Assembly: GCF_009649845.1 (NCBI RefSeq)
Contig: NZ_WJIE01000006.1
Location: 124,001 to 188,000 of the forward strand
Length of the DNA stretch: 64,000 bases
Origin: Polyangium spumosum
GTDB lineage: Bacteria > Myxococcota_A > Polyangia > Polyangiales > Polyangiaceae
Direction of reading: 5' to 3'
How positions within the stretch are numbered: the stretch's first letter is position 1; every line of letters begins with the position of its first letter. The notes under the pieces were generated by a model. The model saw only the letters and a program-made list of their open reading frames with translations. It ran no database searches and was not told the DNA's origin. This document shows, piece after piece, positions 27,260-59,003 of the stretch. Made by a program: the position numbers and the translations under genes.

Positions 27260-27390
27260 GGGTCTTTTTCTCACCAGGTGCGTGGCGCGCGCAAGGACGG
27301 CGCGTCGGGCTTCTAGGTCGAGTCAGGGGAGCGCGCCACCGGCGGCGACGGCGCGGAGCTCGTGGATGAAGGGGGAAAGCCCCTCGATCC

Positions 27391-27778
27391 CCTTGGCGCT
27401 TCGCCAAGCGACGTCGGGAGCCGCTCGCGGCTCGTTGGCGCTTCGCCGAGCGCCGCTCGACGCCGTTCGACTCCTCCTTGGCGCTTCGCCGAGCCGTGCG
27501 CCGGGTCCTCCCCCCTCTCCTTGGCGCTTCGCCGAGCGCCGCTCGACGTCGTCGGACCTCCCCTTGGCGCTTCGCCAAGCCGTGCCCCGGTCCCTCCGAC
27601 CTCTCCTTGGCGCTTCGCCGAGCACCACCCTGGCGCACCGGGAACGTCCTTGGCGCTTCGCCGAGCACCTGCCTGGCTCCGCCTACCTGTGCTTGGCGCT
27701 TCGCCGCGCCTCACCTGACCTCGTCCGACCTCTGCTTGGCGCCTCGTTGAGCCCTTGCGCACAACGTTGCCCTTGCGC
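27391..27778 (+). repeat. nine-unit palindromic tandem array, 43-bp period
   Basis: A core of about 19 bases, CCTTGGCGCTTCGCCGAGC (a hairpin in the CCAAG variants), recurs with TTGGCG at 27393, 27435, 27478, 27521, 27564, 27607, 27650, 27693 and 27736. That is one 42-base and seven 43-base steps. The 24-26 bases between cores vary, though units 2/4 and 3/5 resemble each other. The period is not a multiple of three, which explains the matching low-complexity frames in all six phases. It fills most of the 539-base gap between the divergent ClpB-like and glutaredoxin genes; the 130 bases nearest the clp gene hold nothing recognisable. Confidence 0.9.
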
Positions 27779-49095: not shown

Positions 49096-49974
49096 TCAGG
49101 GGGCGGGCAGGGCGCGCAGGACCCGCTCGTGCCAGAGCAACATCTCGGCCCCGCCGGGCCCTCGGTTCCAGGCGTAATCGTGAGGCCCCGGGGTCACGAC
49201 GAGCTGGTGCGGGACATCCACCTTTGCGAGCGCGGCCGAGAGCGCCCGCACGGCGGGGAGGAACGGATCGGCGTCGCTCGACGCGAGCCGGAGCGCGAAG
49301 GGATGCCGATCCATCGCCGCGCGCGCGAGCCCGGCGAAGTGCGGGGCCTCCTCGGGCTTCAAGGCTGGCTGGAGCGCGCCGATCGCGCCGAACACCTCGG
49401 GATGGGCGAAGCCCACGAAGAGCGCGAGCCGCCCGCCCATGCTCACGCCGTCGATGCCCGTCGCTGCGCGATCCGAGGACGCCTTCGCCTCGGCGCGCGC
49501 GCGCGCCAGGAGCGCGCTCGTGACGAACCGGCCGAAGGGCGCGGCTCCCTTCTCGGATCGATCCGCGACGACGGGCGTGTAGGGACAGGCGACGACGAGG
49601 CCCTCGTAGGCGTGCTTCGCGAGCGAGTGGTTCATCTGCGCGAGCCGATCCGGCCGGAAAAACCCTTCGAGATCGACGCCCGTGAGCGGCGGCGCGGCGA
49701 GCCTGCGATCGAGCCGGTCGAGGCCGTAATCGTCGCGCCAGGCGTACGCGCCGACCTCGAGCCCGCGGCCCGACTCGCCCCGACCATGCAGCGCGACGAG
49801 CACGGGCAGAGGGCGCGCGGACGGCGGAGCGAGCACGAGGGCGCGCTGCTCGTCTTGCGGGAAGGAGAGGTCTTTCCAGCGTGGATCCGCGACCGGCGAG
49901 GGTGCGGATTGCTTGCGGCAAGCGGAGAGGGAGAGGGCCGCGAGGGTGAGGAGGTGGTGACGTCGGGTGTGCAT
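49096..49974 (-). CDS. alpha/beta hydrolase esterase lipoprotein
   Basis: This 292-residue protein has a lipobox LSAC near residue 19. The hydrolase fold shows LVALHGRGESGRG (oxyanion strand), nucleophile elbow GVSMGGRLAL with Ser, acid region SSDADPF, and His in TPGPHDYAWNR. It resembles the esterase D/PHB-depolymerase type. It is probably anchored to a membrane facing the periplasm. The start is ATG 49974. The gene diverges from the small protein at 50.4 kb across the second 43-bp array. The substrate is unknown. Confidence 0.85.
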   Translation of the reverse strand: MHTRRHHLLTLAALSLSACRKQSAPSPVADPRWKDLSFPQDEQRALVLAPPSARPLPVLVALHGRGESGRGLEVGAYAWRDDYGLDRLDRRLAAPPLTGVDLEGFFRPDRLAQMNHSLAKHAYEGLVVACPYTPVVADRSEKGAAPFGRFVTSALLARARAEAKASSDRAATGIDGVSMGGRLALFVGFAHPEVFGAIGALQPALKPEEAPHFAGLARAAMDRHPFALRLASSDADPFLPAVRALSAALAKVDVPHQLVVTPGPHDYAWNRGPGGAEMLLWHERVLRALPAP

Positions 49975-50047: not shown

Positions 50048-50391
50048 CGACCCTGTCCTCCCCCGTGCGTCCTCTTCCGGAACCCTCTCTCGACCCTGTC
50101 CAAACCACGAGCGCCCCTCCCCTCCGAGCGCATCGACCCTGCTCGAACACCCTCCGCTCCCTCCTCCAGCAGGTCGCTACCCTCCTCGAAGACGCTCCGG
50201 TCGCCCGTCCAGAGGGTCGCGACCCTCTTCGAAGACGCTCCGGTCCTCCGTCGGGAGCGTTGCGACCCTCTTCGAAGACGCTCCGCTCTCCCGTCCGGGA
50301 GCGTCGCGACCCTCTTCGAAGACGCTCCGCTCGCCCGTCCAGAGGGTCGCGACCCTCTTCGAAGACCCTCCCGCCGCTTCCTTGGCGCCCG
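50048..50391 (+). repeat. eight-unit tandem array, 43-bp period (second array)
   Basis: The ACCCT mark recurs at 50050, 50093, 50136, 50179, 50222, 50265, 50309 and 50352: seven intervals of 43 bases except one of 44. The core is CGACCCTCTTCGAAGACGC, which contains CTTCGAAG. The palindrome AGAGGGTCGCGACCCTCT occurs at 50211-50228 and 50341-50358. Units decay toward 50048, while the right end is sharp. It fills most of the 458-base gap between the divergent esterase and small-protein genes. Sequence differs from the array at 27.4 kb, but the period and the divergent-gene location are shared. Confidence 0.88.
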
Positions 50392-50432
50392 TGTGAGCCC
50401 CGCGGTACCGTGCCCGCCGATGACGGTCCTGC

Positions 50433-50666
50433 GTGAAGATCGAGCGGCAGATCGAGCGGCTCGCGCAGGACTACGCGATGGCGCTTTACGGCGACGAGAT
50501 CGACGTACTGCTCCAGGTCGCGGAGACCCTGATCCAGCTGCAGCTTGGCCATCGCGTCGAAGCGCTGGACATCGCCAAGCGTGCGGTACGCCTCGCAGAG
50601 CAGGCCGAGGATCGCCGGAGCAAAGAACTCGCGACTATCCTCAAACGCCTCGCCGCCTCCAACTGA
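50433..50666 (+). CDS. small helical protein, GTG start
   Basis: This 77-residue protein starts at GTG 50433 (VKIERQIERLAQDYAMALYGDE). It reads as amphipathic helices with alternating Glu/Arg and Leu/Ala, ending in LKRLAASN. There is no Cys. A TPR-like single helical hairpin is possible (YGDEIDVLLQVAETLIQLQLGHRVEALDIAKRAV). It follows the second 43-bp array by about 40 bases. No ATG alternative keeps the same frame. The 266 bases after it hold nothing recognisable. Function unknown. Confidence 0.6.
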   Translation: MKIERQIERLAQDYAMALYGDEIDVLLQVAETLIQLQLGHRVEALDIAKRAVRLAEQAEDRRSKELATILKRLAASN

Positions 50667-50932: not shown

Positions 50933-52366
50933 GTGCAAGTCGTGCATCCGAGCGCGAGCGGCAGCTCGTTGGCTGAAGACGAAACGCAGACCGCCACGCA
51001 GGAAGGCTTCCGTGAGCTCCTCGAAGCGGCCCCCGATCCCATGGTGATCGTGGACGCGCAGGGCATCGTCAGGCTCGTCAACGCGCAGCTCCTGCGCATG
51101 TTCGGCTACGAGCGCGACGAGCTGCTCGGCCGGCCGATCGACGTCCTCGTCCCCGAGCGCCTGCGGGCCGATCACATCGAGCACCGCATGCGTTACGCCG
51201 CGGAGCCTCGCCCCCGGCCCATGGGCGCGGGCCTCGAGCTCCACGGCCGCCGCAAAGACGGCACCGAGTTCCCCGTCGAGATCAGCCTCTCGCCGATCCG
51301 CACGAAGAGCGGCGTCCTCGTCACCGCGGCGATCCGCGACGTCACCGAGCGCAACCGCGTGCAGGCCAAGTTCCGGGGCTTCCTCGAGGCCGCGCCCGAC
51401 GCGATCATCATCGTCAACGCCGAGGGCACGATCGTCCTCTGCAACTCGCAGACCGAACGTGTCTTTGGCTTCCCGCGCGCCGAGCTGCTCGGCCAGTCGA
51501 TCGAGACCCTCGTCCCCGAGCGCTTCCATCACCGCCACGTCCATCATCGCAGGAGCTTCTTCTCCGATCCGCGCGTGCGTCCGATGGGCTCCGGCCTCGA
51601 GCTCTACGGCCGTCGCAAGGACGGCGCCGAGTTCCCCGTCGAGATCAGCCTGAGCCCCATCGAGACCGAGGACGGCCTGCTCGTCTCGGCCGCGATCCGC
51701 GACATCACCGAGCGCAAGATCGTCGAGAAGCAGCTACGCGCCTCGCTCCTGGAGAAGGAGGTCCTGCTCAAGGAGATCCATCACCGGGTCAAGAACAACC
51801 TCCAGATCGTCTCCAGCATGCTCAACCTGCAGATGGGTCAGATCACCGACCCGCGCGCGCTCCAGCTCTTCAAGGAGAGCCAGACCCGCGTCCGCTCGAT
51901 CGCGCTCTTCCACGAGAAGCTCTATCAATCGAAGGACCTCGCGCGCGTCGAGATCGCCGAGTACCTGCGCAGCCTCGCGACGGGCTTGCTCTACACGTAC
52001 GGCGTCAACCCCGAGCATGTCTCGTTCGTCCTCGACGCCGAGGGCGTGCCGCTCGGCGTCGACGCGGCCATCACCTGCGGCCTCGTGGTGAACGAGCTCG
52101 TCTCCAACGCGATCAAGCACGCGTTTCCGCCCGGTCGTGACGGGCACGTGCGGGTCGCGCTCCGGCGGCGAGGCGACGAGGTCGTGCTCGAGGTCGGGGA
52201 CGACGGCATCGGCTTCCCGCCCGACCTCGACTTCCGCGAGGCGAGCACGCTCGGCCTCAAGCTCGTCTGCATCCTGACCGAGCAGATCCACGGGACGATC
52301 GAGCTCGTGCGGGGCTCGGGTTCGAGGTTCGTGGTCTGCTTTCCGCTCACACCGACGCAGCTATGA
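50933..52366 (+). CDS. PAS-PAS histidine kinase (HisKA_2 type)
   Basis: This 477-residue soluble sensor kinase has two PAS domains (about 25-140 and 147-262) that are near copies ([17 protein letters not shown] and [17 protein letters not shown]). A HisKA_2 domain follows with the phospho-His in [11 protein letters not shown] (His284). The HATPase_c boxes are [12 protein letters not shown] and VGDDGIGFP. No membrane segment is present, so it is a cytosolic sensor that may bind haem, flavin or a small ligand. The start is GTG 50933. The stop overlaps the next gene's ATG (ATGA), so its partner is the receiver-kinase that follows. Confidence 0.92.
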
Positions 52367-57716: not shown

Positions 57717-59003
57717 GTGGAACCCGCTCAGCTCGCAAAGATCGCGCGCGCATCCCTCGCCGAGGCGCTCTCCGCCCTGCAGAGCGCCGACGACGCGCCC
57801 GATGAGCTCCTCGAGGCCGCCGAGCCCATCGCGAAGACGATGGGCATCCTGCACAAGATCGAGCGCAGCGGCGGCGCCGTGCTCGACGGCCGCGACGTCG
57901 CGCTCAAGAACGTGCGCAAGGTCCTCGCGGACGTGCAGGCGCTCGACGTGGATCACCCCGCCGTCGACACGGTGCTCGAGTCGGTCGCCGCGTCGCTCGC
58001 GAAGGTGAACGCGCTCGCGAAGCACAAGGGGACGGGCCAGCCGGCGGCGCAACCCGTTGCGGAGACGAAGCCCGCCCCCCAACCGGAACCACAACGTGTT
58101 GCGGTTCCGGACCCCCCTCCCCAACCCGAACCTCAACGTGTTGCGGTTCCGGACCCCCCTCCCCAACCCGAACCTCAACGCGTTGTGGTTCCGGACCCCC
58201 CTCCCCAACCCGAACCTCAACGCGTCGAGGTTGCGAAGCCTCCTCCCCAGCCGGAACCGCAACGCGTCGAGGTCGCGAAGCCACCTCCCGAGCCCGAACC
58301 GCAACGCGTCGAGGTCGCGAAGCCTCCTCCCGAGCCCGCCGCGCCCGAGCCCGTCGCGGAGGTGATCAAACCCGCGCCCGTCCTCCAGATCGCGCCGGAG
58401 CCCGTCGTCGAGCCGCAACGCGTCGTCGAGGTGAAGCCCGCGCCCGCGCTCGCTCCCGTCGCGGCTGCGCCCGCGCTCGCTCCCATCCCTGCGCCCGTCG
58501 CTGCGCCCACGCCTGCGCCTGCGCCCGTCGCTGCGCCGGCGCCTGCGCCTGCGCCCACGCCCGCGCCTGCGAAGGCCGAGCCGCGCAAGGATCCGCAGCC
58601 CACACCCGCGCCCGCGAAGGCCACGCCCGCGCCTGCCAAGGCCACGCCTGCGCCGGGCAAGGCGCAGGTCCCGCCCGGCGTGCGCCCCGTCGACGTCGAG
58701 CTCGGCACGCACAGCACCTCGAACTTCTACAAGGGCCTCTCCGGCAACGACGTCATCGAGCACGGCGGCATCTTCGTCTCGACCTACCGCATCCCGAAGC
58801 TCGGCGCCGAGGTCCAGCTCCGCGTCCTCATGCCCGGCGACTACGAGTTCTACGCGAAGGCCGTCGTGCAATGGACGCGCGAGGCGAGCGGCTCCTCCGA
58901 GCCCGGCTTCGGCGCGCGCTTCACCCAGATCGGGAGCGAGGGCAGGCAGCTCGTCTACCGCTACGCGCGGAACCGCGAGCCGATGTTCTACGACGACCTG
59001 TGA
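57717..59003 (+). CDS. PilZ-like protein with Pro-rich repeat linker
   Basis: This 428-residue protein starts at GTG 57717 with GGAGGAGG upstream. The N-terminal part (about 100 residues) is helical. A Pro-rich linker contains six 14-residue units of the type PQPEPQRVAVPDPP, then Pro/Ala repeats. The C-terminal 110 residues resemble a PilZ domain (THSTSNFYKGLSGNDV, IEHGGIFVSTY, VVQWTREASG, GFGARFTQI). The RxxxR c-di-GMP signature is not clear, so ligand binding is uncertain. Its stop overlaps the next gene's start in a GTGA. Confidence 0.7.
   Translation: MEPAQLAKIARASLAEALSALQSADDAPDELLEAAEPIAKTMGILHKIERSGGAVLDGRDVALKNVRKVLADVQALDVDHPAVDTVLESVAASLAKVNALAKHKGTGQPAAQPVAETKPAPQPEPQRVAVPDPPPQPEPQRVAVPDPPPQPEPQRVVVPDPPPQPEPQRVEVAKPPPQPEPQRVEVAKPPPEPEPQRVEVAKPPPEPAAPEPVAEVIKPAPVLQIAPEPVVEPQRVVEVKPAPALAPVAAAPALAPIPAPVAAPTPAPAPVAAPAPAPAPTPAPAKAEPRKDPQPTPAPAKATPAPAKATPAPGKAQVPPGVRPVDVELGTHSTSNFYKGLSGNDVIEHGGIFVSTYRIPKLGAEVQLRVLMPGDYEFYAKAVVQWTREASGSSEPGFGARFTQIGSEGRQLVYRYARNREPMFYDDL
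58077..58328 (+). repeat. six coding repeats of 42 bp
   Basis: Six in-frame units of 14 residues (PQPEPQRV plus six variable residues, mainly AVPDPP then EVAKPP) sit in the linker of the PilZ-like protein. Neighbouring units are nearly identical in DNA sequence, so the number may vary between strains. Confidence 0.85.

Follow-up and report, generated by a model that had tools for sequence, protein, structure and literature searches.

The intergenic gaps of the soil myxobacterium Polyangium spumosum and of a second Polyangium genome (G002) contain tandem arrays whose units recur at a step of 43 bp, and this step is much wider spread than the two arrays of the stretch in which it was first noticed (the window: 64,000 nucleotides, positions 124001-188000 of contig C6, from a genome, G000, of 10.76 Mb in 61 contigs). 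The arrays consist of roughly 3-12 repeats of 43 bp, sometimes with half steps, and lie in gaps of every orientation. Periods of 43, 86 and 129 bp together with the half steps are referred to below as the ladder. We favour a class of extragenic repeat that is constrained in length and free in sequence. As a tentative reading, somewhat less than evenly probable, these Polyangium arrays are 'bacterial satellites' in which it is the length of the unit, about four helical turns, that is maintained and not its letters.

The array at 50048-50391 and its relatives

The array spans 50048-50391, with no strand assigned. The motif ACCCT anchors its units at 50050, 50093, 50136, 50179, 50222, 50265, 50309 and 50352, giving steps of 43, 43, 43, 43, 43, 44 and 43, as the original prediction of eight units with one 44-base step had it; three more ACCCT (50082, 50149, 50365) fall out of the 43-bp register. 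Adjacent units are identical at 20, 23, 33, 35, 33, 35 and 26 of 43 positions. The central five units are strong and the two leftmost and the last are weak and worn. TRF reports the well-kept middle, 50134-50371, with period 43, 5.5 copies and 83% matches. The best ungapped lag-43 score is 73.8, against a maximum of 16.0 in 300 Markov-1 sequences (lags 30-59). The array is thus real and far above chance.

The unit carries two dyads, read directly from the letters and likewise unstranded. A 16-bp perfect palindrome, GAGGGTCGCGACCCTC, stands at 50212-50227 and again at 50342-50357; it is the best dyad of the unit consensus and is equalled by 0 of 60 shuffles. The second, the 8-bp palindrome CTTCGAAG (50227-50234), is centred 11 bp, or one helical turn, from the centre of the first and is present again in the conserved units. 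Elsewhere in the same genome, CGACCCTCTTCGAAGAGGGTCG and kindred palindromes that resemble the window core recur at L003:1480-1860 and L002:1440-1610, spaced irregularly or at 64 bp. A search of plasmid and phage collections found no similar DNA at E<=1e-5.

The array fills 344 of the 458 bp between its flanking genes (borders at 49974 and 50433), and our own gene calls (49096-49974 on the minus strand, 50433-50666 on the plus strand) bear out the divergent flanks described earlier. The left gene encodes a putative esterase (PF00756). Polyangium, Sorangium and Minicystis all have relatives of it, and the esterases of P. fumosum and three further Polyangium strains are 86% identical to it. The right one is a small ORF of 77 aa without a Pfam family at E<=0.001, whose residues 2-31 match 30-residue stretches (90%) in loci L005, L008 and L017. 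Because 50399-50441, just ahead of this ORF, resembles by eye the start of a different gene in P. fumosum (L017), the right flank of the array may be a deletion scar. Next on the plus strand is a PAS/HisKA_2 histidine kinase (50933-52366), the orthologue of which adjoins the esterase without an array in loci L016 and L019.

The first array of the window (27377-27754, unstranded, period 43, core CTTGGCG-CTT-CGCCGAG) lies between ClpB-like and glutaredoxin genes and belongs to the same genome-wide class. The two arrays have different cores and one period, as predicted: there is no mutual match at E<1e-3, and both repeat at 43 bp. A 42-bp tandem repeat at 58066-58338 (6.5 copies, 90% matches by TRF), with more short-period repeats at 58390-58663, was left out of the class because 42 is a multiple of 3 and the repeat is perhaps coding.

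Relatives of the 50048-50391 array are found at several sites. In G002, array L006 is 85.7% identical to it over a 56-bp stretch and is again found upstream of the esterase; there the gap is tandem, since the esterase and an M23 peptidase gene share one strand. Array L012 of genome G001 is 85.8% identical to L006 over 351 bp and, by eye, follows the same upstream gene end. In P. sp. 15x6, array L018 has a matching 20-bp core and stands beside the PAS kinase. In P. sp. 6x1 and y55x31 (L016 and L019, 6.9-kb loci), where esterase and kinase adjoin, no ladder-lag array was found. From these loci it follows that the array outlasts its neighbours and its orientation, yet is missing from the site in some species. 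In Minicystis rosea, L026:3946-4460 is an array directly downstream of the esterase orthologue, with units mostly of 42 bp that alternate between A and B types and a core that is the perfect palindrome GATGTCCCGGGACATC. It is the same design in another genus.

The 43-bp step across Polyangium gaps

The survey covered 2.0 Mb of the host genome (contigs C1, C2, C3 and C6) and 0.4 Mb of G002. Genes were called from codon usage as learned on long ORFs (1,569 genes in the host sample), and gaps of at least 60 bp (788 host, 153 G002) were searched for ungapped self-matches at each lag from 12 to 150. These local segments were counted because the genome-wide summed autocorrelation originally proposed as a check mixed 43 with 3-periodic lags from missed genes. 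In that plain sum over gaps, multiples of 3 from missed coding sequence were prominent and 43 was weak (z 3.0), below lags 21, 9, 42, 129 and others.

Local segments are not broadly distributed but peak at 43, 86 and 129. Among the 788 host gaps, lag 21 matches in 16, lag 42 in 25 and lag 43 in 29; lags 84, 85 and 86 match in 13, 12 and 21, and lags 126-130 in 9, 5, 10, 18 and 8, while most intervening lags match in only 0-4 gaps. The over-represented lags are 21, 42-43, 63-65, 84-86, 105-108 and 126-130, and lag-gap matches total 380 versus 1 in a Markov-1 control. In the 153 gaps of G002, lag 43 occurs in 6, lag 86 in 3 and lag 129 in 3. Lag 43 or 86 is found in 30 of the 788 host gaps and 6 of the 153 G002 gaps. 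Once multiples of 3 are excluded as coding repeats, a fundamental of 21.45-21.5 bp describes the lags best, and a value of about 21.5 bp agrees with two and four helical turns. Odd multiples of one turn are scarce (lags 32, 54 and 75 in 1, 4 and 2 host gaps), so that placement on the same face of the helix is not sufficient by itself. The original prediction is in this respect partly supported: a common 43-bp period among mostly unrelated sequences runs through the genome and is no coincidence of two arrays. The link to divergent promoters is not supported, as detailed below.

The ladder pattern persists at score cut-offs from 16 to 40. Contig C1 alone has 52 matches on 15 ladder lags and 15 on 77 other lags, and G002 has 19 on ladder lags and 8 off. 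In C2, C3 and C6 together, off-ladder matches (60 on 77 lags) exceed ladder matches (52 on 15 lags), some of the former falling in poorly called regions around C2:200-235 kb. That region (G000:C2:200000-235000) contains many repeats of 132-134 bp and other lengths, with large gaps between gene calls (e.g., 221573-229843) that are perhaps long repetitive genes missed by the gene caller. Safe evidence for the half step comes from lags 22, 64, 65, 106 and 107, seen in 12 of 68 clusters, of which 2 are doubtful (one poly-C stretch, one in the C2 repeat region); lag 21 would partly reflect 7-codon repeats in missed genes. Of the 68 clusters in all, 41 are 'clean' (a ladder lag not divisible by 3) and were used for folding and for one dyad comparison. 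Placement used 40 arrays, profile comparison 31 and per-array dyad tests 28, clusters being dropped for length, N, a missing lag 43/86 or gaps above 1,500 bp.

No gap with lag 43 turned up in the stretches sampled from Sorangium (260 kb), Minicystis (140 kb) and Cupriavidus (300 kb). In Sorangium So ceGT47 (140 kb) repeat periods are varied, with 11 matches on the 15 ladder lags and 41 on the 77 others. Sorangium So0157-2 (120 kb, a small sample) has 4 on ladder lags (20, 20, 22 and 64) and 7 off, Minicystis 1 and 1, and the Cupriavidus megaplasmid 2 and 2.

The arrays have little sequence in common. Comparison of 50 arrays (the 41 clean clusters plus 9 array loci from other searches) yielded 21 pairs matching at E<1e-3, one of them poly-C against poly-C and one formed by overlapping loci of a single array; 50 control gaps yielded 3 pairs. 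Among profiles of 31 arrays, 5 of 465 pairs score at least 12, with a null of 0. There are accordingly a few small families, and the majority of arrays have nothing in common but the step. Cores are shared by C1:128137/273548, C1:107270/580391, C1:790672/C3:393454, C2:194438/C3:252268 and C1:491752/722006, and for this reason part of the common period is descent.

Explanations for a common length

The strongest rival to a length-constrained class is neutral dispersal, in which one 43-bp repeat, perhaps a 21+22 dimer, spread through the genus and decayed neutrally, its letters drifting past recognition and its length staying because indels are much rarer than substitutions. Besides the loci with shared cores, it draws support from a mean profile-pair similarity just above that of a reversed null (5.2 vs 4.7, p=6e-6) and from Myxococcus xanthus, for which the portion of PMC11069108 consulted sets 428 substitutions against 39 indels, 12 of which lie outside microsatellites. 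It fits the observed lengths less well. Among multi-copy arrays (at least 2.6 copies) with periods of 36-50 bp, a range chosen after seeing the data, the primary period is exactly 43 in 22 of 30 and within 1 bp of it in 27 of 30, the arrays not being fully independent. In simulated drift from one ancestor, by the stage at which about 1-7% of pairs can still be detected, 29-48% of units remain at exactly 43 bp and 48-67% lie no more than 1 bp away, given non-microsatellite indels at the M. xanthus ratio (counting all indels leaves fewer), a star tree, our own indel-size weights and independent arrays. The observed 22 of 30 exceeds this prediction (0.29-0.48) with p of 0.004 or less. We consider neutral dispersal unlikely, though by no means negligible. 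Within arrays, against expectation, selection on length is not seen: 138 lag changes (about 69 excursions) stand against 2,493 mismatches (one base change being counted up to twice), and, measured by the neutral indels of M. xanthus in that portion of PMC11069108, changes of unit length are not depleted. Selection on length is therefore visible across arrays only.

A second alternative is that the arrays are operators, rows of sites at four-turn spacing for a specific transcription factor controlling divergent flanking genes. Helical spacing and the divergent gap of the 50048-50391 array agree with it, as do the dyad-symmetric cores of part of the arrays: dyads exceed shuffles by at least 0.5 in 26 of 41 arrays, and the mean is 6.2 versus 4.6 (28 arrays). 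Dyad symmetry is thus enriched on average across arrays, with p<=0.05 individually in only 9 of the 28. Placement speaks against operators and against the original prediction of a link to divergent promoters. Outside the window, in gaps of 60-1500 bp between our own gene calls, arrays occupy 8 of 251 divergent, 17 of 430 tandem and 6 of 73 convergent gaps, without the preference for divergent gaps that had been expected. Only 8 of 31 arrays lie in divergent gaps, which contain 37% of the bases (p=0.26 by bases, Fisher p=0.44), and in gaps of 200-1500 bp the tendency is towards fewer (8 of 127 divergent vs 23 of 167 others, Fisher p=0.054). Array borders (40 arrays, both genomes) have a median distance of 28 bp to 3' ends (31) and 130 bp to starts (49), a difference with p=7e-5 where start codons are our own calls; arrays do not sit where promoters would place them. 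In 19 tandem gaps the array is nearer the 3' side (p=0.029). Arrays are also strand-skewed in base composition, with a mean absolute GC skew of 0.26, compared with 0.085 in 139 tandem control gaps. The G002 relative precedes the same esterase, and its gap has a different orientation.

Most proteins encoded next to arrays are ordinary ones, among them a class I (W and Y) tRNA synthetase, a transketolase and a prolyl oligopeptidase, or lack a Pfam family. A scan of 28 proteins around 14 arrays, not all of them direct neighbours, found 9 without a Pfam family and one with a LuxR-type DNA-binding domain (L066:8461-9621), the others being enzymes, kinases, a ClpB-like ATPase, TPR, SLOG and copper-binding proteins, and two weak IS1-type transposase matches. 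An operator role is on these grounds improbable. At L070:2246-3370 and L105:7358-8530, two arrays border proteins with such a weak match (IS1-type DDE transposase).

The nearness to 3' ends raises a third alternative, that the arrays are transcribed and function as RNA, either by forming successive hairpins at the 3' ends of mRNAs (terminator or stabiliser) or by loading Rho. The sense strand in tandem gaps leans towards C (mean skew -0.10 vs -0.02 in controls, p=0.05) and towards less folding (p=0.044). Against this, fold z-scores are small and similar on both strands (medians -1.34 and -1.38), an array between divergent genes has no 3' end upstream of it, and no Rfam family reaches its gathering score in the 64-kb window. 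Summed over 28 arrays, the dyad arms have 16 compensated and 213 broken pairs, and G.T (34) is about as common as A.C (38). There is little covariation and no strand bias, with low power as many units are near-identical. Rare compensation and the lack of strand preference point, weakly, to DNA rather than RNA, and we regard the RNA alternative as no more probable than operators.

Least probable of all is a ruler that acts on the founding mutation, with an enzyme of replication or repair generating 21/43-bp tandem duplications, which would suit a sequence-independent step with half steps but not the broad periods of two-copy gap duplications, of which 5 of 20 are on the ladder (15 of 92 lags being ladder lags). 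Multi-copy arrays fall at 43, 86 and 129: the primary period is on the ladder in 28 of 31 gaps with multi-copy arrays, compared with those 5 of 20 with two copies only (Fisher 2.6e-6), when the two genomes are pooled with the window counted in and multiples of 3 are set aside. The length sense therefore seems to act on amplification or retention and not on the first duplication.

Under the length-constrained reading, arrays would arise from ordinary local duplications, and amplification or retention would be limited to units spanning four helical turns (about 10.7 bp each). Unequal exchange or slippage would then copy units whole or in pairs (A/B, 86 bp) while their letters drift. Length would be kept as a DNA architecture recognised by geometry and dyad symmetry, not by one fixed sequence; the average enrichment of dyads given above counts for this reading as well. 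A candidate reader is a hypothetical abundant nucleoid protein of low specificity, bound once per 43 bp.

Known repeat systems and the meaning of a fixed step

As head-to-tail copies outside genes by our own gene calls, the arrays are extragenic tandem repeats, or minisatellites, and a unit length common to unrelated arrays also agrees with ruler-length satellites. Bacterial VNTRs and minisatellites are tandem repeats of gaps that are gained and lost between species, with a unit length that differs by locus; most multi-copy Polyangium arrays, by contrast, are at 43 bp and its multiples. Iterons of plasmid origins are direct repeats about two helical turns apart, with one sequence, one replicon and one initiator. 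The Polyangium arrays resemble them in the helical-turn spacing of direct repeats and differ in having many sequences in many gaps. They do not fit CRISPRs, which have identical repeats and unique spacers: as judged by eye, the remainder of the unit recurs along with the core, although several arrays preserve the core better.

REP and REPIN elements, as described in part of PMC3116915, are likewise extragenic, palindromic and sometimes tandem, but have one sequence genome-wide and a Y1 transposase, RAYT. Polyangium cores mostly differ, most array pairs being unrelated with few small families, and no REPIN- or BIME-like palindrome is common to the genome. A REP/RAYT origin was rejected: PF01797 matches occur in 3 of 6 Polyangium genomes, the host included, and in none of the array-bearing G002. 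Among the matches listed from open-access literature (titles and abstract starts, subscription journals mostly lying outside), there was no description of such arrays, and the consulted portions of three papers on array loci (PMC3696898, PMC8436480, PMC10888264) hold nothing on 43-bp arrays.

A close parallel in design is with eukaryotic satellites of nucleosome-length monomers, as presented in part of PMC8122249, which are also tandem, non-coding and fast-diverging, have a unit length that fits a packaging ruler, and show dyad symmetries and higher-order units. The Polyangium arrays differ in being short (roughly 3-12 units), single between genes, bacterial and 43 bp in unit length, and a ruler protein is for them hypothetical.

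Unrelated bacterial tandem repeats are not expected to have one common unit length, and a fixed step in dozens of gaps offers a handle on the forces that shape bacterial non-coding DNA. So regular a 43-base step suggests that the cell has some means of measuring four turns of DNA. It predicts either a footprint of 43 bp (and 21 bp) or an amplification process with a sense of length. A more specific proposal, which we hold to be rather unlikely, is that a chromatin-like ruler operates in Polyangium and perhaps in Minicystis: a putative architectural protein would bind every 43 bp, with a two-turn half step and little sequence preference, and repeats in gaps would be amplified or kept only when their unit fits. 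If true, this ruler would be a bacterial counterpart of nucleosome-length satellites.
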